From the NCBI RefSeq assembly GCF_030463535.1, contig NC_132879.1, positions 31,914,133 to 31,978,132 of the forward strand: DNA of 64,000 bases. The letters run 5' to 3'. Below the pieces are notes generated by a model. The model saw only the letters and a program-made list of their open reading frames with translations. It was not told the origin of the DNA and ran no database searches. Below, piece by piece: positions 4,010-64,000 of the stretch. Within the stretch, counting starts at the first letter, position 1. Each line of letters opens with the position of its first letter. A program made the translations under genes and the position numbers. Origin of the DNA: Salminus brasiliensis. Lineage: Eukaryota > Chordata > Actinopteri > Characiformes > Bryconidae.

Positions 4010-5090
4010 TGGGATGAATAACTGAAAGCCTGAATTTCAAGTCAGAGCAATTTACATTTAACCAATGTAAATATGTTAATCATCATTTTGTGAACTATGT
4101 ACATATTCATGGACTATTCTTTTTCAGTATTATCCTTTTCTTCATACATGTTATCATTATTAATATGATATTAACATTAAACCTTCGTTTTCTTCAATAT
4201 TTGATTTGGCAATGGTTATTTACAATTCACACCAATAAAGCTATTTAAAATTTGAATTGTGGGATAAAACGAGAGCAGGCCGTTTTTGACTTCAAGAAGT
4301 ACATTTGCGAAATTCCACAATTACTCGTCTGAAGCAATTTCACAGTTTCTGCATTAATAAATAGATGTTAATAGATGTGAATATATGTGTTACTCCTTAA
4401 GTTTCTTTGGTGCCCTTATGTGTAAATCATCCCTTTGCAGAGAATTTCCACTGTAGATTGGTTAAACAGTATCATGGTAAACATCAGCAGTTGACAACAA
4501 GTTACAATGCAGTGTCTTTCTGTTTATTTTTCATATTGTAGGTGCAGATAGTCTTGTGACATCTGTTATCCGCGTGCAGTTTGCTGAACCAAGCAGTGAC
4601 TTTGTCAGATGTCCCCAAGCACATTCCCGTGGTTGTGTTTCTGTGTTATTATATCTTGGTAGGAGGATTCCTTATGTAGACATCATACCTGGATATATCT
4701 GAAGAGGTCAGCCAGCTTCCAGACTCAAATATCTGGATGATGGACATATTCCCATATTCTGGTATATGTTGTGATATGTGGAGTTGAATCTTCTGTATTA
4801 AAAGCCTAATCACAAACATATACACTTTACCACGGTCATACAACACTAGAACTGTGCACATGATGCCAGGTTGGCCTGGGGAACACTTTCATTCTTTGAG
4901 GGACAAATTACAGGGCTGTTCCAGCCTTCTCCTGTGGCATCCAGTTCATCCTGTATGAAAGTTTTTTGGTTCTAATGGGAGGACAACTACATGTATTCTA
5001 TTCAGCATTTGTAACTTTAACCAGCATCCTGAACCCTTAATGTCCCATTAGGTAAATTAATGAGTTAGTCAGCTGTCAGAGCCATTGCAC
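4010..5090. other. AT-rich intergenic DNA, nothing recognised
   Basis: No open frame with splice support and no repeat I recognise. Confidence 0.5.
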
Positions 5091-5214
5091 TGATGTCTGT
5101 TGCAATACAAGTGAATGGAGTGTACAGAACTCTTAAACGCCTGCAGGCATCAGTGTAGGATACTGTACCGAAAGGTATTCTGTGCACTCCATTCACTTGT
5201 ATTTAAACAGATGT
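5091..5214. repeat. Long hairpin (MITE-like inverted repeat)
   Basis: The left arm at about 5091-5129 and the right arm at about 5176-5214 are near-perfect reverse complements, sharing 'ATACAAGTGAATGGAGTG'. The loop is about 46 bp. This fits a small foldback transposon; a hairpin RNA is also possible in principle. Confidence 0.7.
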
Positions 5215-6699
5215 CCGGGTAATGACTCTGCATGCTAGGAGAGGCCTTAACTGCATCGGTGTAAAGACAACTGTGATGGACGGAACACCATTAGACTATA
5301 TAACTGTAGTTGATCACTACAGCTTAAGTAGGCAATTTAACAACATAGTGTTTTGTAGTTGAGTTGATATTACTTTTTATTTACTATAATAATAGGCGTA
5401 ACACCCTACCTGAATTCATGATAGAAAACAGAAGAGGAGCAGGTTCTTGTCCAAGAAACCCCAATCAAAATGCTTTCAGTCCATGCAAATGATCAAGCCA
5501 AACTTCAATGCAACTGTACCTTAAGGTCCAACCCTACTGTCCCAGCTCTTTATCCTCATGATTGACTGTGCTGCAGTCTTACCTAAACTTTAATCTCCAC
5601 CTTCTTCACTGTTGTGTGTCTAAAAATGCCGTATGTCACATACACTGCTTTCCGCAGTGCCCTTCATGGGGCACAGTGCCCTGTGGGGGGTTACACATGG
5701 GTCTCTGCTGGTGTGATATGCCTTTAGGCAAATCATTTTCAGTATCAGTTGACTGTGGCATTATCGCAAATGCTACACATAGTTGGAAATCATTGCCCAG
5801 TAAGCTGACATCCTGACCTCACTAACACTCTCAGACCCTAATAGCAATGTTTTAAGCTGAGTTCAAAGTAAAACTAAATAAAATCCAAGTGGTCCATGAC
5901 GTCCTGTGCACTGCATGTTATGCTCTGAAATAGACGTTGGGTCGGGTTGGCACCACAATTGATTACATCAGTGAATTAAGGAATTGAGCAAACATTTTAT
6001 GTCTCTAAATATAATAATTTTCTGTTTTGATACTTCGTAGATACTTCTGTAAAGAAGCACAGCCTTTTGAGGAGGTCTTTTAATAATAAAATAGAAAAAC
6101 GCAGATTTAATACCAGTTTTAATGGCATGGAGTTTACAATGGTTAAGCAGTTCTGAGCTCTGTTTTTAGAAAGCTGTAATATTACTGCAATTGCGAAAAA
6201 CTTTTCCTTATATAGTTTTATTATCACCCTGGCACATATCCATGTAAAATGGCATTATAAAAGCACTAAAAGAAAAAGAGTCAGCACAAATTACATTGTA
6301 AACCCAACACTCTCCAAGTCTCTACTAAAACTGCACATTATAAATATTCTAGATAGGACAGTTCATACATAACAAGGTGCAATTAGTGCTTTTGCAAAGG
6401 CACATTACATATTATTACATCATTTTGTACTTTATTCCACATCTCAGTTATTTAGCAGACAAGGCCTTGCTGCACCTTTTTGTGACTGTTACTGAGATTT
6501 TAGACATTTCTTTTACCATGAGTTCAGTTCAGTTTGTCGGTTCATTTTCTGAATGTTCCAAAGCCAGCAGCTACGATTCCAGCATACATGTTTGCCTGAT
6601 GTTGTCTCATCTGTGTGCCAAAGAATCTTACTGCTCCTCCACTCTGACTAAAAGTAAACAGGTTTAACATAAACATAAACACACCACCTGAAATACTAT
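5215..6699. other. Intergenic DNA, nothing recognised
   Basis: Only short chance reading frames without splice signals or recognisable motifs. Confidence 0.5.
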
Positions 6700-7480
6700 T
6701 ATCAGGTACACCCACAATGTACTTTGTAAGATTGCAGTGACTGACTGCAGGTGTACGGTGTATCAGCCCCTTTGTACCTCGTCCATCAAAGGAAAAGGAC
6801 CACCACAGGACCACTGCCGCCTGGATATTCTTTGAGTGATGGTAGTGCCACTGAGATGGTAGTGTGTATTGTGCTGAACAGTCAGTTTTAGTGTCACTGT
6901 TGGCTTGCTAAAACTGATCACTGATGAAGGACTAGAGGATGACTGACACAAACAGTACCGACAAGCCTGGGAGTGTGCCAGATACCTGTCTTACAGTTTT
7001 TAATCACCCTACTGAAATGCCCTGCATGTCATGTCCAAATCAAGATGTAAAAGCCACCATCATGCTAGATTGGTCTGCTTCCGTTCAATAGTCTTAATTG
7101 TTCAAAGCATATCCAAAGAGCACTGAAACTGTTCCAGAGGCTTGATACCGATTCCAACACCTTATAATTGATATCAGTGTGTAACAAGCACTACTAGTGG
7201 CTGGATGTGTTAGATTGGTGGACTGTTCTCAACACAACAGTGACAGCACCGGACGACTGCACCTGTAACACAAATACCAGCACAACACACTCTAACATGA
7301 CACTACCATGCTGGTGTCAGTGCTGTTCTGAGAATAGTCCTCCATCTAACAACAGTGGTCCTGTGGTGGTTCTGGTCCAGTGATGGATAGAGCAGGAAGG
7401 GTCTGATAAATTGTGCAGCAACAGACGAGCTCCACTAAAGGTAGACCTATGAAGCCTACCTATATGGTCAAAACGTCCAA
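6700..7480. mobile_element. Fragments of family A repeat
   Basis: 6700-6960 and 7195-7480 carry 'ACCACCACAGGACCACTG', 'GTCCTGTGGTGGTTCTGG' and 'GTGATGGATAGAGCAGGAAG' segments typical of this repeat, in rearranged orientation. They are likely decayed or nested copies. Confidence 0.5.
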
Positions 7481-18200: not shown

Positions 18201-19546
18201 AGCTCCATAAGAATCTCTGTGAATCTGATCTCTGCTGAATCCACTCTTCTCTCCTTCTCCTCACAGTCCTCCACTCCTACAAGCTCCCCTGAGAGAGAGA
18301 GAGAGAGAGAGAGCGAGATCAAAATGTAGAGGGTGCTGTCAAAAGCTTGTCAGCGGTTTGTGTACTATGCCACTGCATGTCCATACACACAAACACTAAC
18401 CAAGGCCTGTATGAAACTCTAGAGGGGTGAGGAAGCCATTTCTGTCCCTGTCCAGACTCTCAAACACGGACTCCAACTGCTCCGGGGTAAGAGGCAGCTC
18501 TCCCTGTAACCGCTGACAACCACATGCACCAAGACAACATGGTTACAGCCATGAGACACAACAAAACACAAGGCATATCTCTAAACAAATGGGCTATAAT
18601 TTGCAGTCTGAGGAATCACAGACACTACAGATACAGTACACTACTCTTCAAATGTTATGAACAGTGCAATGCACACAAGCCCAGTCCCACACTGCACACT
18701 TACAGTCCTGTAGGCCTCATGTGCACATGCCCATCATGGCAGAGAAGAAAACATTTAAGTACGAGTTAAAAGCATTTTCTGAACAATTATTTAGCAGAGA
18801 TTTAGAGCAGGACCACAGGGCTTGGGGCAAGACGTTGGATTTGCATGGAATTGTGGGAACTGAGAGTAGTATTGTGGGATTTAAGAGTATTGCTATGGTA
18901 TCTGTAGACATGTCAAGATTTTAATGATATTTTCAAATCGTCTGTCTATCTTTCTGGATAGATCAAAAAGGTCTTCACTTTTTTCAGATCCCTGTTAATT
19001 ATTTGATTGACATTTTATAAACAAACTGATGTTTAATAATAATGGAGACACATAGGATTCTGTCATAATTATGTTTTTTGTATTGTTTATAGCTCAATTT
19101 TAGTTCTATGAGTATTAGCATTTTTAGTTTTGCACAAGAACATGGTACTTTCTCATCTTTTTAAATCATCTACTCCAGCAGGTATTCTTTTTATTGATTA
19201 ATTGATTTAAATAATACTTACAACATTTATTCATAGTTTAAAAACAGACCCTGTGGTAAGTGCAACCAAACAGTAAACTGTAGTGTATGATGCGTAAAGA
19301 GACCTGCATGTCCCTTTTGGTAATGAAGCCCTTGCCCTCTTTGTCACACAGCTCAAACAGTTCTTTGGCTTTGCTCATGCGGTCTTGCGGGACAGGGCCT
19401 GGAGGCTGATCTTTGTTCAGTCCGCTGATGGAGGAGGGTCTTCCCCCTCTGCCTGGCATGGGACTCTTTAGCCTGGGGGTACATGGAGATGCTTGCCCAC
19501 TGCCCTCACCTTCAAGCACCTCTTCATCCTTCAACCAGCCTGACAT
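8355..19546 (-). CDS. cracr2a: CRACR2A-like EF-hand/coiled-coil/Rab GTPase, complete coding region in 17 exons
   Basis: Exons in transcript order: 19546-19304, 18512-18401, 18288-18177, 17875-17729, 16899-16809, 16412-16332, 16243-16056, 15902-15831, 14333-14279, 12423-12344, 11509-11410, 11009-10892, 10756-10675, 9549-9435, 9240-9133, 9022-8946, 8442-8355. All introns are GT-AG and phases agree throughout, giving 622 residues. An EF-hand-like loop (residues 68-79, [12 protein letters not shown]) precedes a canonical loop (102-113, [12 protein letters not shown]). A coiled coil covers roughly 190-385. The Rab-type GTPase shows GSSGVGKS (440-447), WDTAGQE (487-493), NKTD (546-549) and SAK (578-580), and the chain ends CCK, a prenylation-type tail. 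In mammals the long CRACR2A form is a calcium-sensing Rab GTPase acting with ORAI1/STIM1 and vesicle traffic. The linker between coiled coil and GTPase is shorter than the long mammalian form. The start is the first ATG of the EF-hand exon. The last exon is the least certain; which fish paralogue this is remains unresolved. Confidence 0.92.
8569..8724. mobile_element. Small MITE in the last cracr2a intron
   Basis: The left end 'GTTAGCAAAAGTCAGAGA' and the reverse complement of the right end (GTTGTGCAAAAGTCAGAGA) form terminal inverted repeats about 150 bp apart. No open frame. Confidence 0.65.
11332..11386. repeat. (TA)n microsatellite beside a cracr2a exon
   Basis: About 55 bp of TA repeats begin some 20 bp downstream (in transcript sense) of the donor of the 11410-11509 exon. 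Expansion or contraction could affect splicing. Confidence 0.95.
11630..11780. mobile_element. Fragment of a DNA-transposon-like repeat
   Basis: 'AAAGTATTAGGACACACCTC' followed by 'CATTCAGTCCCATTGCCACA' resembles the left end of a common fish non-autonomous element. Intronic in cracr2a. Confidence 0.4.
12217..12251. repeat. (AAAT)n microsatellite
   Basis: About nine tandem AAAT units in the intron upstream (genomic left) of the 12344-12423 exon. Confidence 0.9.
13110..13280. mobile_element. Possible small foldback element
   Basis: 'TGACACAAAAACCTTTTATT' near 13110 is matched by the reverse complement of 'GGAGATAAAAGGTTTCTGTG' near 13255. The arms are imperfect. It lies in a cracr2a intron. 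Confidence 0.4.
14867..15488. mobile_element. Full-length family A non-autonomous DNA transposon
   Basis: The element starts with AGCCATTTTATCAGGT and ends with ACCTGATAAGATGGCCAG, which form terminal inverted repeats of about 18 bp with few mismatches. The interior carries the TGTATTGTGCTGGTATTCGT-type text shared with 3575-3790 and 6700-7480. It has no transposase frame, so it would depend on an enzyme encoded elsewhere. It sits in the intron between the 15831 and 14333 cracr2a exons. Confidence 0.65.
18291..18313. repeat. (GA)n microsatellite overlapping a splice acceptor tract
   Basis: On the minus strand this CT-rich run forms the polypyrimidine tract immediately before the 18288-18177 cracr2a exon. 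Confidence 0.85.
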
Positions 19547-19621
19547 TACTGAGAGAATAAGAAAACAAGGTAAGAAAAATAACATAAGAAGGAAAATAAC
19601 ATAAAACAAACTTCTAGCGCC

Positions 19622-20095
19622 ATTTTCATTAAATGTCCAAATGTTTGTGGACACCCTGCAAATAAATGCATTCAGCTACTTTAAGTAGCACCCATTGCTG
19701 GCACAGATGTGCAAATGCACACATACAGCTTGTGCTGCCAATACAGTAGGAGTATCTGGAGCAGGTAAACATGAACTTTGAGCTGTGGATCTGTGGAGCA
19801 GTGAAACTGTGTTCTCTGGATTGAGGTATGGTGCTTCATCCAGTATATTGGGGAGTTGGGGATGAGGGGAGGTGGTAACCATCCAACATCCTGACCTCAC
19901 TAATGCTCCTGTCACTGAATGCAATCAAATTCTCACAGCAATGCTTCACAATCTAGTAGAAAGCTTTCCTTGGACAGCAAAGACAGAATGTCTTTTTAAT
20001 ACCCTTGACTTCAGAAGGAACAATGAATGAGCAGGTATCCCACTTCTGGTTTTCCCCATAGAGTCCATGTCCACATTTTGTTTATTAATGAAACT
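19622..20095. mobile_element. Family B non-autonomous DNA transposon, near full length
   Basis: Begins 'AATGTCCAAATGTTTGTGGA' and contains 'TTTAAGTAGCACCCATTGCT', 'GAGCTGTGGATCTGTGGAGC' and 'TGCTTCACAATCTAGTAGAA', a well-known dispersed teleost repeat layout. Right end decayed. It lies just upstream of the cracr2a first coding exon. Confidence 0.65.
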
Positions 20096-20522: not shown

Positions 20523-22035
20523 CTGCAAACATGTAGAAAACCTTGAGGCACTACAACAAGTTCAGCGTTCTCTTCTACAGAATACAGCATAAATCATCTA
20601 AACAGCGTAAACATTAAATGGTGGTTTGCTATGTTGTTTGAGCCGAGGCATTAGGGAGCTCTGCCCTTTGTAAATATCAGCATGTAAGTTCAGTAAGGCT
20701 CACACACACTACACTTCATCCCAACCACAGAAACGTAACTCTAAGCTCACATAAAGTTCGGAAATATATTCGGGAATATCAGTTGACTCAAAAACTCCAT
20801 AACACTCCATGATTAGTGGTTTAAATGATACTGTGGTGGCCAAGAAAATAAAGCCATAATCCCCAAAAAGTAACTTTACACAAGAACAAAAAAAAGCCTC
20901 TAGTACTTTTAATATGCATTAATGCAATTTGGGAGATTTTACTCAATGTGATTTAGGAGCACTTCTGTTTACACACATTTTTGTCATTGGCGATAACGAC
21001 GACCAAAAAAATCATATAAAAGTATGGAACTGCTGGACATTTTCCAAAGTGAAGCACAAATGAAACTAATAACTTCATTTGTTAAAAAAAAAAAACACAA
21101 AAAAACTCTCTCTTAAAGCTCCAGGATGTAGACAGGGAAATGCTGTGGCCATGTGGCAGGGCTACGGGGTGTGTACCTCACAGGGAGTGGATACAGAAAC
21201 AAAGTGAGATGCAAATAAAGCATTAATGCATGTTTGCAGTCTTTACAAAACAAATAAAGCAATCGACTCCCCTCAACTCATTCCCACTGAATACCCCCCC
21301 CCCACACACACACACACACCCCCATGAGCTCCAGGATATAGACGGCAGGACAAGATGGTCATGTGATTGGACTGTGGCGTGGTGTGGTGTGTGTTGATTT
21401 TTTAAATCAAATATGACCTCTTTAGACAAGAGCAAGGGTGGCACAGTGTCTCTTCCTTACAGAAATGATGGTTCCACTATAAATTATTCAAATTATTATG
21501 AATGGTGTAACAATTTCAATACAGTCCTGATTAAAACTGTGTATTGATGAGACACCTTGACTTCTTCCAATGGTTTCTCATTTGCAGTTGTTATGAACGT
21601 ATTTATAGTGAATGCTTAGTGTCAGACTCTGACAGACTATGAAATCCCTTTTGTGACGAACTGATATTGTGAGGAGTTTTAATGGGGGTATAAAAATGGA
21701 GACATGCTATACAGGGATCATAAAGAGGTAGTTTAGGTTTCTCTTTAGCTCCGTTTTAGTTTTCTTAAGATCACTGTTTTATACAGATGCATTCTACTTT
21801 GCAATCCTTTATTTTAAGATGTCACTTTGTTTGAGCCAAACCAATCAGTGTAGTATATAAGTAGATTTTTTAAATTCAGTATCAACCCAGCGATCAAAAA
21901 TTTGATTAAACCTGCAAAAACGTGTAATGTTACAGATATTTATCATCTGCCCCAACAGTTACTATTTTTTATATTTTTAAAATTTTTATTTGTTTAATTT
22001 AATTGTTGCTGTCACACAAAAACTTTGGGTATTAT
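20523..22035. other. cracr2a 5' intron or flank, nothing else recognised
   Basis: There is a poly(A)-rich patch near 21080-21110 and a short C-run followed by (CA)n near 21294-21320. No supported gene. Confidence 0.5.
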
Positions 22036-23202
22036 TTTACTTGGATGGTCCATTGTAGATGCCTTGTAGATGCTCACCTGACATTCAACTAATATTCCAC
22101 TGAATGCCTATGCAGTGTTTTTAAATGTGTTTAGGGTTAGGTTTAAGGTTGAGGGTAAGGTTAGGGTTAGGTGCAGGGTTAGGGTTAGATTTAAGGTTGA
22201 GGGTAAGGTTAGGGTTAGGTGCAGGGTTAGGGTTAGATTTAAGGTTGAGGGTAAGGTTAGGGTTAGGTGGAGGGTTAGGGTTAGATTTAAGGATTTAAGA
22301 TTTAGGGTAAGGTTAGGGTTAGGTGCAGGGTTAGGGTTAGGTTTAAGGTTTAGGGTAAGGTTAGGGTTAGGTTTAAGGTTGAGGGTAAGGTTAGGGTTAG
22401 GTGCAGGGTTAGATTTAAGTTTGAGGGTAAGGTTAGGGTTAGGTGCAGGGTTAGGGTTAGATTTAAGGTTTAGGGTAAGGTTAGGGTTAGGTTTAAGGTT
22501 GAGGGTAAGGTTAGGGTTAGGTGCAGGGTTAGGGTTAGATTTAAGGTTGAGGGTAAGGTTAGGGTTAGGTGGAGGGTTAGGGTTAGATTTAAGGATTTAA
22601 GGTTTAGGGTAAGGTTAGGGTTAGGTGCAGGGTTAGGGTTAGGTTTAAGGTTTAGGGTAAGGTTAGGGTTAGGTTTAAGGTTGAGGGTAAGGTTAGGGTT
22701 AGGTGCAGGGTTAGGGTTAGATTTAAGGTTTAGGGTAAGGTTAGGGTTAGGTGCAGGGTTAGGGTTAGATTTAAGGCTAGATTTAAGGTTGAGGGTAAGG
22801 TTAGGGTTAGATTTAAGGTTGAGGGTAAGGTTAGGGTTAGGTGCAGGGTTAGGGTTAGATTTAAGGTTTAGGGTTAGGATAGGGTTAGGTGCAGAGTTAG
22901 GGTTAGATTTAAGGCTAGATTTAAGGTTGAGGGTAAGGTTAGGGTTAGGTGCAGGGTTAGGGTTAGATTTAAGGTTTAGAGTAAGGTTAGGGTTAGGTGC
23001 AGGGTTAGGGTTAGATTTAAGGTTTAGTGTAAGGTTAGGGTTAGGTGCAGGGTTAGATTCAATAGACAACCATTGGTTAGGGTTAGGGTTAGGGTTCATT
23101 CAACCTAGAGTTCAGTTGTATTTAATAGGCGTTCAGTTGAATGCTAGCGGAGCATCAGGTGAACATCTACAAGGCACCTCTAACAGACCATCCAAGTAAA
23201 CA
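22036..23202. mobile_element. Inverted-repeat-bounded element carrying a telomere-like minisatellite
   Basis: Left end (22036-22080) and reverse-complemented right end (about 23157-23202) align over about 45 bp: both contain TTTACTTGGATGGTC, then GCCTTGTAGATG and TCACCTGA. Subterminal 'CATTCAACT' motifs also mirror each other. The interior is almost wholly a degenerate TTAGGG array. No transposase is present. Most likely it is a non-autonomous DNA transposon whose core is or acquired a telomere-like tandem repeat. Confidence 0.75.
22130..23095. repeat. Interstitial telomere-like array with 48-bp higher-order unit
   Basis: Variants of TTAGGG (TTAGGT, TTAAGG, TGAGGG, GTGCAGGG, TAAGG) are organised into a recurring unit of about 48 bp in which two TTAGGG-type copies alternate with TGCAGGG and GATTTAAGG. 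Several units contain deletions. Because 48 is divisible by 3 and stop codons are absent from the unit, long artefactual open frames (up to about 209 codons) appear on both strands. Confidence 0.9.
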
Positions 23203-24590
23203 TCGCATCTCTATGTATCTCTTTTTCTCTTGTTCACTCTTTGGTCTAATTTATATCTGGTCATTGCTCTCCTTACATTGTGGCATTGGAATGTAGCTAC
23301 TAAATTCACTTGGAATAAAATATTTTTTCTTTGAAAGTTTAGGTTTTTCCACTTTTCTTAATTTATTCATAATTTAATGTTGTAATCTTTTTCAGCATTA
23401 TGCAGAACATGACAGCAATCAGCCTGTATTGGAATAATTGGAAGGCTTTTTTATTGACCTTAAATATTTCATGATGCACTGCTTATACTGCCTGAAATAA
23501 TTATTCAAAAATTAATTATAAAAGGCAGCAATTATTGAATATTTCAGCTAACCACAGGTTTGTTTTTTTTTTGCTCGGTATGCCTGTGAGCAACAACTGC
23601 ACTAGTCACTATACATAGAAACAAACAACAACATAATCCCACTCTTTGGCCTACGATCATGTCACATGTTAAACTGCAATTTTGTGATTTAGTGTGTCAT
23701 ATAATACAAACTACCAAACCCAAACAAACACTATCTCATCTGACACAGCCTACCAAAACCCAACACATCATCAAAACCTTCACAAATGCCAACACACACT
23801 AAACACAAGATCCTGCGGCAGGCAGTGCTTCTGCAGCCCTCAAGGTTAAACACACACTGGCCTTCAGTTAGCACAGTTTTAAATGACAGGAAGAGATAAG
23901 TGAGCCAGTCATGTCAGGCACCTTCAGAGCTCTGTACTGAACCTGAACTAAACTAAACAGTTTGGGCGAGAGAAGTGAAGGTCCAGCTTTATGCTACAGT
24001 GAAATCTGCCATAAAACTTTCTGCATCTTTTATCTGGAGCTACAGCTGAAGATCACCTAACAGTATTTGGTATTTGACCTAAGCTTACCCAAAGCTCTCT
24101 ATTTCCCAAATCGGAAACCATTCCTGGATAAAACACAAGGCTACACCTGTAAAACTAGACCAGCTCAGTACATTTACTTTATGTCCGCAAAAGCAGATGA
24201 TGGCAAGTTCACGCGAAGCATCTACAGACTGTGTTTCCAAATACCAATACCAATATACACAAAACGGTAGTCAATGCAGCTAAATACTGGACAGTACTCA
24301 TAGTGTGGTTTGCGAGCAATCGCTAACTAACAGCCAGGCTAGATCCTGAAAAGAGTATCCTGTTGGAGCCATGCATTATTGATTAGTAGCCCCTTAGACT
24401 CCTCCACACGTTTAATATGTAGACTAATTATTCGAAACGCTGTAATTCACGCATTCAGTTTCAAAACTCTCCCATTTCAAACTTTTCCCAGTTTAAAAGA
24501 GGCACTGAACTCACCTTTATCAGAGTTGGGGAATGTGTGCGCTGTCCCAGCACAGCCCCAGGTGTTCTCTAGCGGCTACGGCACTGCTCT
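23203..24590. other. cracr2a upstream region, nothing recognised
   Basis: AT-rich DNA without supported exons or repeats. Confidence 0.5.
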
Positions 24591-37775: not shown

Positions 37776-39625
37776 TATGCATGAATACAAGTCTGCGTCA
37801 TATGGAGTAAGGAAGGCGGTAAAGGAGGCGAAGCAGCGCTACGGGAGGAAACTAGAGTCCCAGTTCCAGCAAAACGACTCTAGGAGCCTGTGGCAGGGAC
37901 TGAGAACAATAACGGACTATAGGAGCCCACCCTGTGGACTGGGAAGTGCAGACTTATCTCTGGCGAACGAGCTAAACACCTTTTATGCTCGCTTTGATGC
38001 TGCAGCCGGCAACGTTAACTACAGTAACACCGGCACAGCTGACATAGAGGAGCACGTCAGTGAACAAAGAGCCTTTCACCATCACAGAGAGAGATGTACA
38101 GCGGGTGTTCAGGAGAGTGAATACCAGGAAGGCTGTGGGACCTGATGGCATCTGTGGTCGAGTCCTAAAAGCCTGTGCAGATCAGCTAGCCCCGGTATTC
38201 ACGGACATCTTTAATCTCTCACTGACGCAGGGGATTGTTCCATCGTGCTTCAAACAGTCCATCATCGTTCCTGTCCCAAAGAAACCACAGCCAGCCTGCC
38301 TCAACGACTACTGCCCAGTCGCCCTCACATCAGTCGTGATGAAGTGCTTCGAGAAGCTGGTGAGAGACTTCATCACATCCACGCTGCCCGACACCCTGGA
38401 CCCGTTTCAGTTTGCATACCGTCCAAACCGTTCCACAGATGATGCCATCGCTCACCTTCTCCACACATTGATGACACATCTGGATGCTGGGAGGGGTAAT
38501 TATGTTAAAATGCTGTTTGTGGACTACAGTTCAGCATTTAACACTATTATTCCCTCAAGACTCACCACAAAGCTGGAAGATCTAGGTCTCCACCCATCCA
38601 TCTGTGACTGGATCTCCAACTTCCTCACAAACAGACCACAAGCTGTTCGGGTAGGCAAGCATGTCTCACCCACCCTCACCCTCAGTACCGGAGCCCCTCA
38701 GGGCTGTGTCCTTAGCCCTCTGCTGTACTCGCTGTACACCTCAGACTGCAAAGCCACTTCCAGCTCCACCAACATCATTAAGTTTGCTGACGACACAGTT
38801 GTGGTGGGCCTGATCTCAGGAAATAATGAGAAGGCCTACCTGGAAGAGATTAGAACCCTGGAGAACTGGTGCCAGGATAATAATCTCCAGCTAAATGCCA
38901 GCAAAACGAAGGAGCTGATTGTGGACTTTAGCAGGAAACAGCAGAGGAGCTATCAACCTGTCCACATCAGTGGAACGGCAGTGGATAGGGTAGAAAGCTT
39001 TAAATACCTTGGAGTGACCATCTCTCAGGACTTGTCATGGAGTTGCCACATCAACACCATAACGAAGAAGGCTCGTCAGCGCCTATACCACCTGAGACGA
39101 CTGAGGGACTTCAGACTACCCTCCAAGGTACTACGATCCTTCTACTCCTGCACCATCGAGAGCATCCTCACGGGGAACATCACAGTCTGGTTTGGGAACA
39201 GCACCAAGCAGGACAGGCAAGCGCTACGACGAGTGAGACGTTCAGCAGAGCGAATCACTATGATGGAGTTTCCTGACCTGCAGTCCATCTACAAGAAGCG
39301 GTGTTGGACCAAGGCCAAGAAGATTGTGAAGGACCCCAGTCATCCCAACAATGGACTGTTTTCTCTGTTGCCCTCGGGGAAACGCTTAAGAACCCTAAAG
39401 GCTAACACAGAGAGAATGAGGAGGAGCTTCTTTCCACAAGCCATCCGTGCCCTGAATGGGGACAGGGACTAGGACACTAAATTAAAATATCTACATACAC
39501 AAACTGGACCCTCACTCACTACAATACACAACCATGGCTCGCGGAAAACTCACTACGGACAATAACGAAAATATTTCTTTTTAACTCACACATATACTCA
39601 CATACAGATAAATATGTACATATGT

Positions 39626-40997: not shown

Positions 40998-41122
40998 GTA
41001 AGTCTTTCTCGGATTTATCCACTGTGATATCAAACCAAAGCCTTTAAACAGTGCTCATACTTTCTGCAGTAGTAGTATTTTTGTTGTGGTCATAGTTGTT
41101 TTTTTATTTTCATCACAGAATC

Positions 41123-42539
41123 ATGAAATCAACCATTTTTAGCAACATTGAAAACGCTCTTCATGAAAGTCCTGAGCAGGCCCTGATTAAGAAGATGAAG
41201 AAGACCAGCCGGTTTCCATTCAGGAGGGAAATGAAAGTCAGTGACAACAAGAATGAGGTTCTTCCAGATGTTCCAGACAGTTGAAGACTCCACTTTACAG
41301 ATGATTTGAATGCAGTCGTTTAAATGAATGTCTGAACTCTGCTGATGTGTGTGTTTGCAGTATTTGTGCTGGAATACTTTCATGAAAACCTCTGGTATGG
41401 TTTTCTGCTCTTCATGGTCTCTGTAATCGGAACTGCAACGTACTTCAGCACTGGTGAGTAAAGACTCCAAAGTACCTATTATTCACTGTATGTTCAGTAA
41501 CTGAATAGATCAGATTGACTGAAGAAAGGCTTAATATAAAGAAGGAAGCATTTGACGTATAACTGATCTGCAGATCTGGACCTGGATCATCAGATGATCA
41601 GGATGATCAGCCCTTTTACTTGCAGCAGTACTTTTCCAGGAGTTCTCATACAGTGTCTTTTTATATCCAAATTAGGACCACCATACGGTTGCAGCGTAGA
41701 CTGTTTTCAGTTTTTTGTTCTCCGTGTGGGTGATGTGGTCTCGGGCCTTCCGTCAGGAGTACAGGTTTTATGTTCGGAACATTTTACCTAAGCATTCTCC
41801 CCTTCAGCAGCTCTGCATCGCTGAGGTCACATAAACTATGTAAGTCTTTCTCTGATTTATCAGATATCAAATATCAAACCAAAGCCTTTATGGAAGCTCC
41901 TTTCTCTGTTCTCACTAATCACTTCATGCATCAGATGATAGAAGAGCTTCTTGAAGTGTTCAGTCTGTTAATGTGCTGATTCATATTTTGGGGAGTAAAT
42001 TGCATGGCTTTATGAGACCATATGTCTGTCTATTCTTTTTCAGCCCAGGGAAAGGTGAAGTTTAGACTGATCCTAATGGGACAGGAGATGGAAGCCATTG
42101 GACTCAGCAGATTTATGAACACCAGTGAGGTACAGAACAAATCAATGCAGACATAAATTAGCCTGAAAATAAACCACAAATTAAAAGATTTTATACTACA
42201 TGTTATTCGTTAAGGGGAATTGTAGCACACACTAGTGCATCTCAAAAATACAAGATTCTAAAATAGTGAACCAGGGTTCTTGGTATCTGATGTTACATTA
42301 TTAATCAAATATAATTAAGTTGGTAGTTGATTTTTTCAATGAAAGCAAACCAGTGACACCTGTAGATATGATTATTTCTGTGTATACCTTACACTAGTTC
42401 TCTTTTTTCACAGTTACTGAATTGCCAGGGTAGAAGACTAGCCAAGACACTCGGTCTCAACTACCTGGATGATAGAAACATCGCATGGCGTAGGCCTCAT
42501 CTACGCATTGGCATACGCCCCAAAATATTGACAGTGTAA
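41123..42539 (+). pseudogene. tmem249: tmem249 pseudogene A2 (all five exons, damaged)
   Basis: Exons correspond to 41123-41234, 41361-41453, about 41674-41845, 42044-42129 and 42414-42539. Relative to the intact copy at 61660-63140, exon 1 has lost a base near its donor and the donor context is changed. Exon 2 lacks 7 bp at its 3' end. Exon 3 has a 27-bp deletion over the VIESQKQ region plus a later small shift giving an early TAA. Exons 4 and 5 are nearly identical to the intact copy, including the terminal TAA. So this is a recent pseudogene from duplication, not retroposition, since introns are retained. Confidence 0.85.
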
Positions 42540-42689
42540 AATGCAGAGCTGAAATCAGAAGCACTGAACACTGGCCCTGAGCCAGATGCTAGAGACTCTA
42601 GTAAGTGTTCACACAGTGTGTGCTGATTGCTGGAGATGGCATACAGGTGATTATGAGACCAGTAGGTGATCAGAAGGTCAGGCTGGCAG

Positions 42690-42870
42690 AGTGCTGTTAG
42701 ATGTTATTGGCTTGCTATCCAGTGTCGACCAGAGGAGTCTTGGTTCCTCTCAAGGTTTCTTCCTAATGCATTTAGGGAGTTTTTCCTTGCCACTGTTGCC
42801 CTTGGCTTGCTCACTAAGGGTCTGGACCTGGATTTTTGTAAAGCTGATTTTTATAACATCTGTCATCAAT
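42690..42870 (+). mobile_element. Common teleost dispersed repeat (same family as 36598)
   Basis: 'CCTCTCAAGGTTTCTTCCTA' and 'GGAGTTTTTCCTTGCCACTG' are the reverse-strand version of the 36.6-kb repeat. It is duplicated at 63320-63500. Confidence 0.6.
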
Positions 42871-43800
42871 AGCATTTTACATGCCTTCTTTAACTCAGAG
42901 GCAGCGGAGAATGTTATTGATGCTGCACCAGCCAGGGCTTTCTGGTTGCTCCTGGTCTCATTAAACAGACCCACCGCGTCTTGGAGCTGGTCCACTGGGC
43001 TCCAAGGCATGGGTTCTCAGCCTGCGAGTCTAAAATCCCTGTCTTTAGTGTCCTCGGACTACGAAGATGTCCAGGCGAACTTGAATTAGAAGACGTCTCA
43101 GTTACCATGTGGGTGATCATGAGTTGCTGACTGTCATACTGGCCTTAGAGGAGTGGTGGCACAATGGAGCCAGTCACCCCTTCCTGGTTTGGAAAGGCCA
43201 GTCGGGCACTGTTCTTCACCCTGTTTGACTTTGCATCTTCGTACAGGTCTGGGTGGAACAATGCTGATGCTCTCTTCCGCCAGTAGGAGGCCTCCCCTAA
43301 GGAACAGCCGCCAGCAACCACAGTACCCAAGGCCCGCATAGCATCTCCCATCCAGCTTGGGGTAGAAGCCACAGTATGGCGGGCCCCTAGGAATGAGTCA
43401 GATCTGTGAGGTGGCACTTGTGATTGGCTGTGCTGCCATTAAAGACCAGGTGCTGCAGTTGGGGCAATTTTCCCCTTCATAGCACACCTGTGGGTGGTCT
43501 GTACATTAAAGTTCTGGTGGCCGTGCTTGGACCAAGAGTTATGGGCATACGTGGCAGCTTGTAAGGTATGTACCTGCAACAAGGATCCCGGAACTGAACT
43601 GGCAGGTTTGCTCCACCTGTTATCCATCCTCTCTGGCCCATGGTCTCATGTCTCCATAGACTTTGCCACGGTGTTGCTCTCTTCCCAGGGGCATTACCGT
43701 GATCTTGGTCATGGTTGACTACTTGTCTAAGGCAAGCAAGTTTATTGCTCTACCGACACCCCTGTCGTCCAGGGAGACAGCCATGCTATAACTTTAGCAT
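42871..43800 (+). pseudogene. Decayed Ty3/Gypsy pol fragment (protease, RNase H, integrase pieces)
   Basis: Pieces in order are: a protease-like AAENVIDAAPARAF (the catalytic DSG is replaced by NSE), a linker with SWSTGLQGMGSQ and VSSDYEDVQ, RNase H C-terminal text (ASHPFLVW and NNADAL-like), and integrase N-terminal text (FWWPCLDQELWAYVAACKVC, WSHVSIDF). Stops, frameshifts and a large deletion (most RT) intervene. No LTRs identified. A near-identical copy begins at about 63500, so the fragment predates the block duplication. Confidence 0.75.
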
Positions 43801-47736: not shown

Positions 47737-50700
47737 TTCATCTTCTTAATCAGGGCCTGCTCAGGACTTTCATGAAGGGCGTTTTCAAGGTTGCTAAAAA
47801 TGGCTGATTTCATGATTCTATGATGAAAACAAAAACACAACTATGACCACTACAAAAATACTACTACTGCAGAAACTGTGAGCACTGTGATCTGTACTTC
47901 AAGAACAGTGCCCACCTGGCCTTTCCAAACCAGGAAGGGGTGAACTGGCTCCATTGACCATAAAGGCTTTGGTTTGATATCACAGTGGATAAATCTGAGA
48001 AAGACTTACATAGTGTATGTGCCCTCAGTCTGATGCAGAGCTGCTGAGGGGGAGCACGCTTCAGTAAAATGTTCCGAAGAAAATACCCGTACTCCTGCTT
48101 TTGGCCGTCTATCACAAGATGCCGACAGAAGGCTCCAGACCACATCAGCCATATGGAGAAGAAAAGACTGAAAACAGCCAATACTGCAACCGCATGGTGG
48201 TCCTAAGTTGAATATAAAATAGAGACTGTATGAGAACTACTGGAAAAGTACTGCTGCAAGTAAAAGGGCTGGTCAGCAGAGTTCAGACATTCATTTAAAT
48301 GAATCTGTAAAGTGGAGTCTTCAACTATCTGGAACATCTGGAAGAACCTCATTCTTGTTGTCACTGACCTTCACTTTCCGCCCTGAATGGAAAACTGCTG
48401 CTCTTCTTCATCTTCTTAATCAGGGCCTGCTCTGGACTTTCATGAAGGGGGTTTTCAAGGTTGCTAAAAATGGCTGATTTCATGATTCTGTGACGAAAAC
48501 AAAAACACAACTATGAACACTACAAAAATACTACTACTGCAGAAACTGTGAGCACTTACATAGTTTATGTTCCCTCAGTCTGATGCAGAGCTGCTGAAGG
48601 GGAGCACGCTTCAGTAAAATGTTCCAAACAAAATACCCGTACTCCTGCTTTTGGCCGTCTATCACAAGACGCAGACGGAATGCTCAAGACAATATCATCC
48701 ATATGGAGAAGACTGAAAACCGCAAGGTGGTCCTAATTTGAATATAAAATAGATACTATATGAGAACTCCTGGAAAGGTACTGCTGCAAGAAAAAGGGCT
48801 GGTCATCCTGATCATCTGAGGATCCAGTTCCAGATCTGCAGATTAGTTTTATTTCAAATGATTCCTTCTTTATGTTTTTTATATTTCTTTAGTCAATCTG
48901 ATCTATTCAGTTACTGAACATACAGTGAATTATAGGTACTTCGGAGTCTTTACAGTGCTGAAGTAAACCATAAACAGCAGAAAACCATATCAGAGGTTTT
49001 CATGAAAGTATTCCAGCACAAACACTGCAAACACACACATCAGCAGAGTTCAGACATTCATTTAAATGACTGCATTCAAATCATCTGTAAAGTGGAGTCT
49101 CGAAATGTCTGGAACATCTGGAAGAACCTCATTCTTGTTGTCACTGACCTTCATTTTCCCTCCTGAATGGAAACCGACTGATCTGTTTCATCTTCTTTAT
49201 AAGGGCCTGCTCAGGACTTTTAGGAGTGGCGTTTTCACGGTTGCTGAAAACGGCTGATTTCATGATTCTGTGATGAAAACAAAAAACAACTATGACCACT
49301 ACAAAAATACTACTACTGCAGAAACTGTGAGCACTGTGATCTGTACTTCAAGAACAGTGCCCACCTGACCTTTCCAAACCAGGAAGGGGTGAACTGGCTC
49401 TATTGAACATAAAGGCTTTGGTTTGATATCACAGTGGATAAATCATTCATTTAAACGACCGCATTCAAATCATCTGTAAAGTGGAGTCTCGAAATGTCTG
49501 GAACATCTGGAAGAACCACATTCTTGTTGTCACTGACCTTCATTTTCCCTCCTGAATGGAAACCGACTGATCTGCTTCATCTTCTTAATCAGGGCCTGCT
49601 CAGACCTTTCAAGGTTGCCGAAAACAGCTGATTTCATGATTCTGTGATGAAAACAAAAAGAGCAACTATCACCACTACAACTCTGACCACTGTGGTTTTC
49701 CTACTAAATAAAAAAAAAATAAAACACATGGTGGTCCTAATTTAAATATAAAAAGATACTGTAGGAGAACTCCTGGAAAAGTACTGCTGCAAGTAAAAGG
49801 GCTGGTCATCCTGATCATCTGATGATCCAGTTCCAGATCTGCAGATCAGTTATATGTCAAATGCTTCCTTCTTTGTATTAAACGTTTCTTCAGTCAATCT
49901 GATCTATTCTGTTACTGAACATACAGTGAATTATAGGTACTTTGGAGTCTTTACTCACCCCCGCACCAGTGCTGAAGTACGTTGCAGTTCCGATTACAGA
50001 GACCATGAAGAGCAGAAAACCATACCAGAGGTTTTTGACGAAAGTATTCCAGCACAAATACTGCAAACACACACATCAGCAGAGTTCAGACATTCACTTA
50101 AACTACTGCATTCAAATCATCTGTAAAGTGGAGTCTCCAACTGTCTGGAACATCTGGAAGAACCTCATTCTTGTTGTCACTGACCTTCATTTTCCCTCCT
50201 GAATGGAAACCGACTGATCTGCTTCATCTTCTTAATCAGGGCCTGCTTAGACCTTTCAAGGTTGCCGAAAACAGCTGATTTCATGATTTTGTGATGAAAA
50301 CAAAAAGAGCAACTATCACCACTACAACTCTGACCACTGCGGTTTTCCTACTAAATAAAAAAAAACCGCATGGTGGTCCTAATTTAAATCTTCTTTATAT
50401 TAAATGTTTCTTCAGTCAATCTGATCTATTCTGTTCCTGAACATACAGTGAATTATAGGTACTTTGGAGTCTTTACTCACCCCAGCACCAGTGCTGAAGT
50501 AAACCATAAACAGCAGAAAACCACACCAGAGGTTTTCATGAAAGTATTCCAGCACAAATACTGCAAACACACACATCAGCAGAGTTCAGACATTCATTTA
50601 AACGACTGCATTCAAATCATCTGTAAAGTGGAGTCTCCAACTGTCTGGAACATCTGGAAGAACCTCATTCTTGTTGTCACTGACCTTCATTTTCCCTCCT

Positions 50701-52270
50701 GAATGGAAACCGACTGATCTGCTTCATCTTCTTAATCAGGGCCTGCTCAGACCTTTCAAGGTTGCCGAAAACAGCTGATTTCATGATTCTGTGATGAAAA
50801 CAAAAAGAGCAACTATCACCACTACAACTCTGACCACTGCGGTTTTCCTATTAAAAAAAAAAAAAAAAAAACGCGTGGTGGTCCTAATTTAAATCTTATT
50901 TATATTAAATGTTTCTTCAGTCAATCTGATCTATTCTGTTCCTGAACATACAGTGAATTATAGGTACTTTGGAGTCTTTACTCACCCCAGCACCAGTGCT
51001 GAAGTAAACCATAAACAGCTGAAAACCATACCAGAGGTTTTCATGAAAGTATTCCAGCACAAATACTGCAAACACACACATCAGCAGAGTTCAGACATTC
51101 ATTTAAACGACTGCATTCAAATCATCTGTAAAGTGGAGTCTCCAACTGTCTGTATCATCTGGAAGAACCTCATTCTTGTTGTCACTGACCTTCATTTTCC
51201 CTCCTGAATGGAAACCGACTGATCTGCTTCATCTTCTTAATCAGGGCCTGCTCAGACCTTTCAAGGTTGCCGAAAACAGCTGATTTCATGATTCTGTGAT
51301 GAAAACAAAATGAGCAACTATCACCACTACAACTCTGACCACTGCGGTTTTCCTACTAAATAAAAAAAAAAAAAACGCATGGTGGTCCTAATTTAAATAT
51401 AAAAAGATACTGTAGGAGAACTCCTGGAATAGTATTGCTGCAAGTAAAAGGGCTGGTCATCCTGATCATCTGATGATCCAGTTCCAGATCTGCAGATCAG
51501 TTATACGTCAAATGCTTCCTTCTTTGTATTAAACGTTTCTTCAGTCAATCTGATCTATTCTGTTACTGAACATACAGTGAATTATAGGTACTTTGGAGTC
51601 TTTACTCACCCCAGCACCAGTGCTGAAGTAAACCATAAACAGCAGAAAACCATACCAGAGGTTTTCATGAAAGTATTCCAGCACAAATACTGCAAACACA
51701 CACATCAGCAGAGTTCAGACATTCATTCCGCTGCAAGTAATAGGGCTGATCATCCTGATGATCCAGTTCCAGATCTGCAGATCAGTTGTACATCAAATGC
51801 TTCCTTCTTTATATTAAACCTTTCTTCAGTCAATCTGATCTATTCTGTTACTGAACATACAGTGAATTATAGGTACTTTGGAGACTTTACTCACCCCAGC
51901 ACCAGTGCTGAAGTAAACCATAAACAGCAGAAAACCATACCAGAGGTTTTCATGAAAGTATTGAAAGTACACTACATGAAAGTACACTACAACTCTGATC
52001 ACTGTGTTTTGGAAAAAAAAAAAACGTATGGTGGTCCTAATTTAAATATAAAAGCAGCAGAGTTCAGACATTCATTTAAACGACTGCATTCAAATCATCT
52101 GTAAAGTGGAGTCACTGTCTGGAACATCTGGAAGAACCTCATTCTTGTTGTCACTGACCTTCATTTAATCTCCGGAATTAAAAACTCATCATCTTCATCT
52201 TCTTAATTAGTGCCTGCTCAGGACTTTCACGAAAGGCAACTATGACCACTACAAAAATACTACTACTGCA
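47737..52270 (-). pseudogene. tmem249: Tandem array of tmem249 exon 1-2-3 fragments
   Basis: All fragments are on the minus strand. Exon-1 copies start (ATG) near 47811, 48481, 49262, 49640, 50283, 50783 and 51290. Exon-2 copies lie near 48955-49027, 49958-50057, 50481-50560, 50986-51065, 51610-51690 and 51895-51962. Exon-3 copies lie at about 48010-48205 and 48557-48735. Two successive exon1-exon2 modules repeat at a 505-bp spacing. Exons 4 and 5 never occur, so no unit can make the protein. Long plus-strand frames here are antisense shadows of these exons. Two inserts (about 47900-47960, 49335-49400) carry Gypsy RNase H text. Confidence 0.8.
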
Positions 52271-60879: not shown

Positions 60880-61659
60880 GTAAGATCCACATTTAAACCA
60901 GTTCAAATCAGAACCAGAACCGAATTCTTTCAGCAGCAGAAAAACACGACCCGGCTCTCAGAAGAAGCGCCTTCATATTTGACGAACCCTGAACCTACTG
61001 TTCAGTAAACATCATAGACTCTTCACCCTTTTGGAGACTTTTAGAGAGTGTCTTATGTTTTTGTACAACCTTGATGAGTAAAACTCACACCTTTCCCATT
61101 GGCTTCTGGCACCATCTATTTGCATACTGGGCCTGCCCCCCATTCCCTCACCATCATTGTAAATTCATTCCTCCAGACTACCTTCTCCTATGTGGTGAGC
61201 TGTTGCCTGTTTTGTGCTGCAGCTGCTTGGTTTTAGTGATGAAAATAATCAAAGGTGGATTTTGTTAATCCTTGTTTAGGGTTTAGGGTTGGTAGAGCAG
61301 AGAGATCAGTAAACTGTGCTGGATTATGATTCTCATTGTCTTCTCTGCAATCCAGTTGAAAATTATTAAACATAATATCAACATAAGCAGAGTAATTAAA
61401 ACTCACTTCCTTTAGTTACCTTTATAAAACACTTACCAGTTCCTAGTTTGTGTTCAGTTCAGTCCATGATGTAATTTAAACTTAAATAATGTTACAAAAG
61501 AAATGCTATTGAACTTAAATTGCAATTGGCTTGATCAAACAATTTAAGTTCAGGTAACTCATCAGGTTTTCCAATAAGAAGATCACAGTGCTCACAGTTT
61601 CTGCAGTAGTAGTGTTTTTGTTGTGGTCATAGTTGTTTTTTTGTTTTCATCACAGAATC

Positions 61660-63140
61660 ATGAAATCAGCCGTTTTCAGCCTTGAAAACGCACTTCATGA
61701 AAGTCCTGAGCAGGCCCTGATAAAGGAGATGAAGAAGAGCAGCAGTTTTCCATTCAGGAGGGAAAATAAAGGTCAGTGACAACAAGAATGAGGTTCTTCC
61801 GGATGTTCCAGACAGTTGGAGACTCCACTTTACAGATGATTTGAATGCAGTCCTTTAAATGAATGTCTGAACTCTGTTGATGTGTGTGTTTGCAGTATTT
61901 GTGCTGGAATACTTTAATGAAAACCTCTGGTATGGTTTTCTGCTCTTCATGGTCTCTGTAATCGGAACTGCAACGTACTTCAGCACTGGTGCGGGGGTGA
62001 GTAAAGACTCCAAAGTACCTATAATTCACTGTATGTTCAGTAACTGAATAGATTAGATTGACTGAAGAAAGGCTTAATATAAAGAAGGAAGCATTTGACG
62101 TATAACTGATCTGCAGATCTGGACCTGGATCATCAGATGATCAGGATGATCAGCCCTTTTACTTGCAGCAGTACTTTTCCAGGAGTTCTCATACAGTGTC
62201 TTTTTATATCCAAATTAGGACCACCATACGGTTGCAGTGTTGACTGTTTTCAGTCTTTTCTTCTCCGTATGGCTGATGTGGTCTGGGGCCTTCCGTCGGC
62301 GCCTTGTGATAGAGAGCCAAAAGCAGGAGTACGGGTATTATGTTCGAAACATTTTACTGAAGCGTGCTCCCCTTCAGCAGCTCTGCATCAGACTGAGGGC
62401 ACATACACTATGTAAGTCTTTCTCTGAATCCACTGTGATATCAAACCAAAGCCTTTATGGAGGCTCCTTTCTCTGTTCTCACTAATCACTTTATGCATCA
62501 GATGATAGAAGAGCTTCTTGAAGTGTTCAGTCTGTTTCATCAGTCTGTTAATGTGCTGATTCATATTTTGGGGAGTAAATTGCATGGCTTTTTGAGACCA
62601 TATGTCTGTCTATTCTTTTTCAGCCCAGGGAAAGGTGAAGTTTAGACTGATCCTAATGGGACAGGAGATGGAAGCCATTGGACTCAGCAGATTTATGAAC
62701 ACCAGTGAGGTACAGAACAAATCAATGCAGACATAAATTAGCCTGAAAATAAACCACAAATTAAATGATTTTATACTGTATGTTATTCATTAAGGGGAAT
62801 TGTAGCACACACTAGTGCATCTCAAAAATACAAGATTCTAAAATAGTGAACCAGGGTTCTTGGTATCTGATGTTACATTATTAAATAACATATAATTATA
62901 AAAGTTTGTAGTTGATTTTTCAATGAAAAAAATAATATTTATAAAGCAAACCAGTAACACCTGTAGATATGATTATTTCTGTTTGTCTCTTACACTACTT
63001 CTCTCTTTTCACAGTTACTGAATTGCCAGGGTAGAAGACTAGCCAAGACACTCGGCCTCAACTACCTGGATGATAGAAACATCGCATGGCGTAGGCCTCA
63101 TCTACGCATTGGCATACGCCCCAAAATATTGCCAGTGTAA
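61660..63140 (+). CDS. tmem249: Transmembrane protein 249, intact copy, 5 coding exons
   Basis: Exons 61660-61771, 61896-61996, 62219-62411, 62624-62709 and 63015-63140 have GT-AG introns and consistent phases, giving 205 residues. Hallmarks shared with mammalian TMEM249 are NKVFVLEYF followed by W and a first hydrophobic helix, a second helix ending WLMWSGAF then RRRLVI, and a C-terminal ARxLGLNYLDD-like segment (here RLAKTLGLNYLDD). In mammals TMEM249 is an accessory subunit of the CatSper calcium channel complex in the sperm flagellum. This is the only copy in the window with all exons open. Paralogous fragments at 40.5-54 kb derive from it or a common parent. Assignment rests on remembered family features, since identity to the human protein is low outside these blocks. 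Confidence 0.85.
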
Positions 63141-63319
63141 AATGCAGAGCTGAAATCAGCCCCAAAAACACTGAACACTGGCCCTGAGCCAGATGCTAGA
63201 GACTCTAGTAAGTGTTCACACAGTGTGTGCTGATTGCTGGAGATGGCATACAGGTGATTATGAGACCAGTAGGTGATCAGAAGGTCAGGCTGGCAGAGTG
63301 CTGTTAGATGTTATTGGCT

Positions 63320-63500
63320 TGCTATCCAGTGTCGACCAGAGGAGGATGGGTTCCCCTTTTGAGTCTTGGTTCCTCTCAAGGTTTCTTCCTAATGCATTTA
63401 GGGAGTTTTTCCTTGCCACTGTTGCCCTTGGCTTGTTCACTAGGGGTCTGGACCTGGTTTTCTGTAAAGCTGATTTTTATAACATCTGTCATCAATAGCA
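63320..63500 (+). mobile_element. Common teleost dispersed repeat (duplicate of 42690-42870)
   Basis: Near-identical to the 42.7-kb copy, with a short insertion (GATGGGTTCCCCTTTTGA) after the GACCAGAGGAG motif. Confidence 0.6.
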
Positions 63501-64000
63501 TTTTACATGCCTTCTTTAACTCAGAGGCAGCGGAGAATGTAATTGATGCTGCACCAGCCAGGGCTTTCTGGTTGCTCCTGGTCTCATTAAACAGATCCCC
63601 CGCATCTTGGAGCTGGTCCACCGGGCTCCAAGGCATGGGTTCTCAGCCTGCGATTCTAGAATCCCTGTCTTTAGTGTCCTCGGACTACGAAGATGTCCAG
63701 GCGAACTTGAATTAGAAGACGTCTCAGTTACCATGTGGGTGATCATTTGTTGCTGGCTGTCATACTGGCCTTAGAGGAGTGGTGGCACAATGGAGCCAGT
63801 CACCCCTTCCTGGTTTGGAAAGTTGGGCACTGTTCTTCACCCTGTTTGACTTTGTATCTTCGTACAGGTCTGGGCGAAACAATGCTGATGGTCTCTCCTG
63901 CCAGTAAGAGGCCTCCCCTAAGGAACAGCTGCCAGCAACCACAGTACCCAAGACCCGCATAGCATCTCCCATCCAGTTTGGGGTGGAAGCCACAGTATGG
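63501..64000 (+). pseudogene. Decayed Ty3/Gypsy pol fragment, cut by the window end
   Basis: Same protease-like (AAENVIDAAPARAF), linker and RNase H text as 42871-43380, with few differences. It continues beyond the window. Confidence 0.75.

Follow-up and report, generated by a model that had tools for sequence, protein, structure and literature searches.

How did an array of telomere-like repeats come to lie at an internal position in a fish chromosome, enclosed by two inverted copies of one terminus? This question is raised by a locus of Salminus brasiliensis that was analysed within a stretch of 64,000 nt (GCF_030463535.1, NC_132879.1, positions 31,914,133 to 31,978,132, forward strand), referred to here as the window; all coordinates are counted from its first letter, and the parts of the locus are collected in Table 1. 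The initial annotation described the array as bounded by inverted termini, and this description holds, since arms that are identical at 61 of 76 positions enclose a 926-bp array whose period-6 consensus is TTAGGG. The inverted copies are longer than the roughly 45 bp first proposed, each arm being 76 bp, and of the proposed span of 22036 to 23202 the start is retained while the end falls 2 bp past the arm, which stops at 23200. The locus is probably one non-autonomous DNA transposon with terminal inverted repeats, MITE-like and about 1.16 kb in length, in which the 76-bp arms carry a telomere-like minisatellite as their filling.

Table 1. Parts of the telomere-like element and its candidate target site, in window coordinates.
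Feature	Positions	Strand	Remarks and basis
Left terminal inverted repeat, 76 bp	22036-22111	+	Outermost letters TTTACTTGGATGGTC; with TA taken as target duplication, the arm begins CTTGGATGGTC
TA, left copy of candidate target-site duplication	22038-22039	.	Offset and length scan
Left inner spacer, short, from arm to array	22112-22130	+	Sequence
Degenerate TTAGGG-type minisatellite array, 926 bp	22131-23056	+	Units of 48 bp (eight hexamers) and 30 bp; + strand G-rich; TRF, hexamer counts, lag identity
236-bp block, first copy	22177-22412	+	Recurs 302 bp downstream; 234/236 identical
236-bp block, second copy	22479-22714	+	234/236 identical
Right inner spacer	23057-23124	+	Contains the sole perfect (TTAGGG)3 stretch (23077-23094)
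Right terminal inverted repeat, 76 bp	23125-23200	-	61/76 identical to left arm
TA, right copy of candidate target-site duplication	23198-23199	.	Offset and length scan

The telomeric character of the filling is degenerate. When TRF was applied to the array, a period of 48 was returned with 19.1 copies and 80% matches, and at period 6 the consensus is TTAGGG with 65% matches. Exact TTAGGG occurs 41 times on the + strand of the array and not once on the - strand. The main 48-bp unit consists of eight hexamers (TTAGGG TTAGGT GCAGGG TTAGGG TTAGAT TTAAGG TTGAGG GTAAGG), and nowhere inside the array do two perfect hexamers stand in succession. The (TTAGGG)3 run of the right inner spacer is the sole run of at least two perfect hexamers between 22000 and 23230; some 20 bp of other sequence lie between it and the array, with whose right-hand half it shares its hexamer phase, and it may be a remnant of the stretch that founded the array.

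Such degeneracy leaves room for a different origin of the filling, in which a fold-back or other inverted-repeat element contains an array without telomeric ancestry, that is, a G-rich minisatellite that converged on TTAGGG. We regard this as unlikely. Although the period-6 match to TTAGGG is just 65% and period 48 fits better, as convergence would have it, the 48-bp unit matches a rotation of the telomere repeat at 38 of its 48 positions, an agreement that none of 100,000 letter shuffles equalled, for one chosen unit that was possibly picked for its look. Convergence is also opposed by the perfect TTAGGG run that lies beside the array in matching phase. A G-quadruplex claim for the array was dropped, since neither strand of the window holds a motif of four GGG runs joined by loops of 1-7; a relaxed GG-run pattern, counted on the + strand, covers 698 of the 926 array bases versus 938 of the 63,074 others.

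The internal organisation of the array indicates how it grew. Among lags 1-599, identity within the array is strongest at lag 48 (0.767 versus 0.65 at lag 6), which indicates that blocks of previously varied hexamers were amplified, since lag 48 would not be expected to exceed lag 6 had telomerase added the repeats and each then mutated independently. The stretch 22131-23034 splits into 19 pieces, with one 30-bp form present in four identical copies and one 48-bp form in three, and the array as a whole is a hierarchy of 30-bp and 48-bp units and a 302-bp repeat. The view that the 48-bp unit reflects amplification of a variant block, not telomerase addition, is borne out by the predominance of lag 48 over lag 6 and by the 236-bp block that recurs with 234 of its 236 positions identical. 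These observations support an origin of the array by block amplification of variants, not as a fresh product of telomerase. Provided that the arms were once identical, the 99% likeness of the block pair set against the 80% likeness of the arms suggests that the arms diverged before the amplification took place.

These features also bear on the proposal that the locus is an interstitial telomeric site left by a double-strand break or by repair templated by telomerase RNA, with arms that are unrelated local DNA. Such an origin would agree with a period-6 consensus that is exactly the vertebrate TTAGGG and with the presence of the perfect (TTAGGG)3 run. In the available portions of one study, however, short telomeric sites of the break-repair type are described as exact or nearly exact repeats (PMC8537989), and an array without two consecutive perfect hexamers departs from this description. 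Arms so similar to each other would not be expected, and no match to a telomerase RNA family was obtained in 21800-23450 at E values up to 10. We therefore consider break repair very unlikely. For the class of interstitial sites that it examined, those flanked by telomerase RNA sequence, the same study found no sign of spread by transposons (PMC8537989). No Rfam family reaches its gathering score in the window, and two snoRNA hits, close to the element's edge or on it, score far under their cut-offs and were taken as chance.

The arms themselves support the reading of the locus as a single unit. They align in inverted orientation without gaps (80% identity), with 15 of 15 positions identical in the outer 15, 40 of 46 in the first 46, and 21 of 30 in the last 30, and the alignment stops sharply at both outer ends. 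The local alignment score of the arm pair is 92, compared with a maximum of 37 among 3000 pairs of first-order Markov sequences modelled on the two flanks; in a cruder and less favourable control, 953 pairs of stretches drawn at random from the window included two with higher scores (182 and 203), followed by one of 78. None of the other inverted repeats in the whole window, 88 in total at a minimum length of 30 nt and a maximum spacing of 2000 nt, is as long as these arms, and 22 of the 24 others listed are, as judged by eye, simple AT- or CT-rich repeats. Strong inverted matches are found elsewhere in the window, mostly at 40-64 kb among the 90 of 115 matches listed. In the minimum-energy fold of the single DNA strand, the two ends of the element form one stem that is absent from the centroid fold, a result that, with no shuffle control at such length, adds little. 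The differences at 15 of 76 positions imply either that this copy is old or that its family never had identical ends. A relic left by the fusion of chromosomes, or an old telomeric site that two independent inverted elements flank by chance, would account for telomere-like DNA at an internal position, and either arm could by itself end a separate element, but both are highly improbable, as all exact repeats have the same orientation (41 forward and 0 reverse), with no head-to-head arrangement, and the arms share length and outer limit and point towards each other across a single filling. Taken together, the rival explanations are weaker than the transposon reading.

Other inverted and dispersed repeats were observed in the window. 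A small palindromic element at 5077-5230 (arms 5077-5129 and 5178-5230, 53 nt, 83% complementary, 48 nt apart) has the ends CAGAG/CTCTG and looks like another MITE, and 72-nt inverted arms (72%, 536 nt apart) are located at 6745-7424. Among the 90 of 115 matches listed, a mosaic of repeats in both orientations occupies 40473-64000, where for example 41048-43379 pairs with 61585-64000 at 92%, and repeat copies about 500 bp apart lie at 49868-51398.

If the locus is a transposon, its target site may be sought at the outer ends of the arms. The initial annotation's reading of a transposon is supported in part, in that one unit with terminal inverted repeats surrounds the array; a check for a target-site duplication yields at best 2 bp, TA, which also belongs to the inverted repeat. 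When end offsets of 0-7 were combined with duplication lengths of 2-12, TA was the only full duplication that the ends of the element allow, and it abuts both of them. This 2-bp palindrome is weak evidence, since TA is frequent where DNA is AT-rich and, being identical to its reverse complement, may merely extend the arms by chance. The element nevertheless probably has a TA target duplication, and Tc1/mariner is a first guess for its superfamily. Tc1/mariner ends are usually CAGT or CCAG, from which the terminal bases of the element, CTTGG, differ. The 8- or 9-bp duplication of hAT or Mutator elements was not found, the best agreement over offsets 0-7 being four of eight positions (offset 6) and three of nine. 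Nor was the TTAA duplication of piggyBac or Kolobok elements found; TTTA on the left and TAAA on the right are each one change away from it, and these are possibly decayed copies of TTAA.

Four stop-to-stop frames of at least 90 codons are present in the element, and by eye all of them are translations of the repeat array, as expected for a non-autonomous element. Elsewhere in the window, where the Pfam domain scan covered seven of 54 frames, the open frame at 38048-39472 (474 codons) looks LINE-type, as it encodes a reverse transcriptase domain (PF00078, E 1.2e-29) followed by an ALKBH8_N match (E 1.3e-10). A frame at 43443-43718 shows a weak integrase zinc-binding match under the Pfam cut-off. 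On the - strand, an exon-like frame at 19238-19675 has an EF-hand Pfam match under the cut-off; among solved structures its nearest relative is EFCAB4B (6psd, E 1.2e-6, 27 residues), the other matches being mostly to calmodulins. The distance from this frame to the telomere-like element, which is on its upstream side, is about 2.4 kb. The reverse transcriptase and EF-hand frames are in keeping with an animal host, probably a vertebrate.

Within the 64-kb window there is no second copy of the element. Searches were also made in collections that say little about the host. The arm pattern was found at three loci in viral contigs, with no match extending beyond the 23-base pattern; comparison with both arms and with the window revealed no second arm alongside and no match to the window at 1e-5, and these loci were rejected as chance matches. 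The array pattern was absent from the viral contigs and the arm pattern from prokaryote genomes, and no match was obtained for the left arm among plasmids or for the whole element among phages.

MITEs with internal tandem repeats are established, and include Xmix/Xstir and miDNA4 of Xenopus, according to the available portions of three papers (PMC12628747, PMC9659126, PMC6004289). Of these, miDNA4 is a Tc1/mariner MITE with an internal satellite (Scalvenzi and Pollet 2014, via PMC12628747, PMC9659126). Like the present candidate, it is non-autonomous, has terminal inverted repeats, and encloses an array, for which variable copy number is reported and capture of tandem repeats has been proposed; in the portions of these sources that were available its satellite is not described as telomeric, whereas the present element is known from one copy and its superfamily is unproven (PMC12628747, PMC9659126). 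Xmix/Xstir, a T2 MITE of the Kolobok superfamily, likewise contains an amplified internal segment, but in the accessible text Xmix has a TTAA target and an AGGRR end, where the element described here has TA, one change per side from TTAA, and CTTGG (PMC6004289). The fold-back element Tetris of Drosophila virilis is a further Class II element with tandem repeats, which, as far as the available text describes them, are located in its terminal repeats and not between them as in the present case (PMC9659126). A general model in which two transposons flank repeats shares with the present case the carriage of tandem repeats between terminal inverted repeats, but it is a general model and not an element with a telomere-like filling.

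A transposon origin of interstitial telomeric sites is not a new idea. Insertion of transposons with telomeric repeats has been proposed as a source of heterochromatic interstitial telomeric sites (Bolzan 2017, via PMC9693754, as cited in the accessible part). The general idea is alike; what differs here is that a single candidate, whose ends are defined and whose array is degenerate, can be followed base by base. Within the open literature, to the extent that its text was available and with most subscription papers and repeat libraries such as Repbase lying beyond this scope, no description of a MITE with TTAGGG repeats was met, and no base-level example with a telomere-like filling was met in the open papers.

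A plausible history of the element can be outlined from its present structure. An ancestral short element would have gained a short stretch of TTAGGG, which mutation would then have turned into variant hexamers. Slippage or unequal exchange may have amplified blocks of these variants into the 30-, 48-, and 302-bp repeats, and a transposase supplied by an autonomous relative could have mobilised the whole element through its ends. It is possible, at odds slightly below even, that a MITE family of the host carries telomere-like arrays of varying length to many internal sites, in which case part of the interstitial telomeric signal would be the filling of transposons. As a single copy, the element is a well-shaped candidate only. 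Should a family of copies be confirmed, it would constitute a case at the level of sequence for a transposon origin, and not one by chromosome fusion, of some interstitial telomeric sites, and the two end sequences would allow the telomere-like sites of a genome to be sorted into those that are borne by transposons and those that are not.
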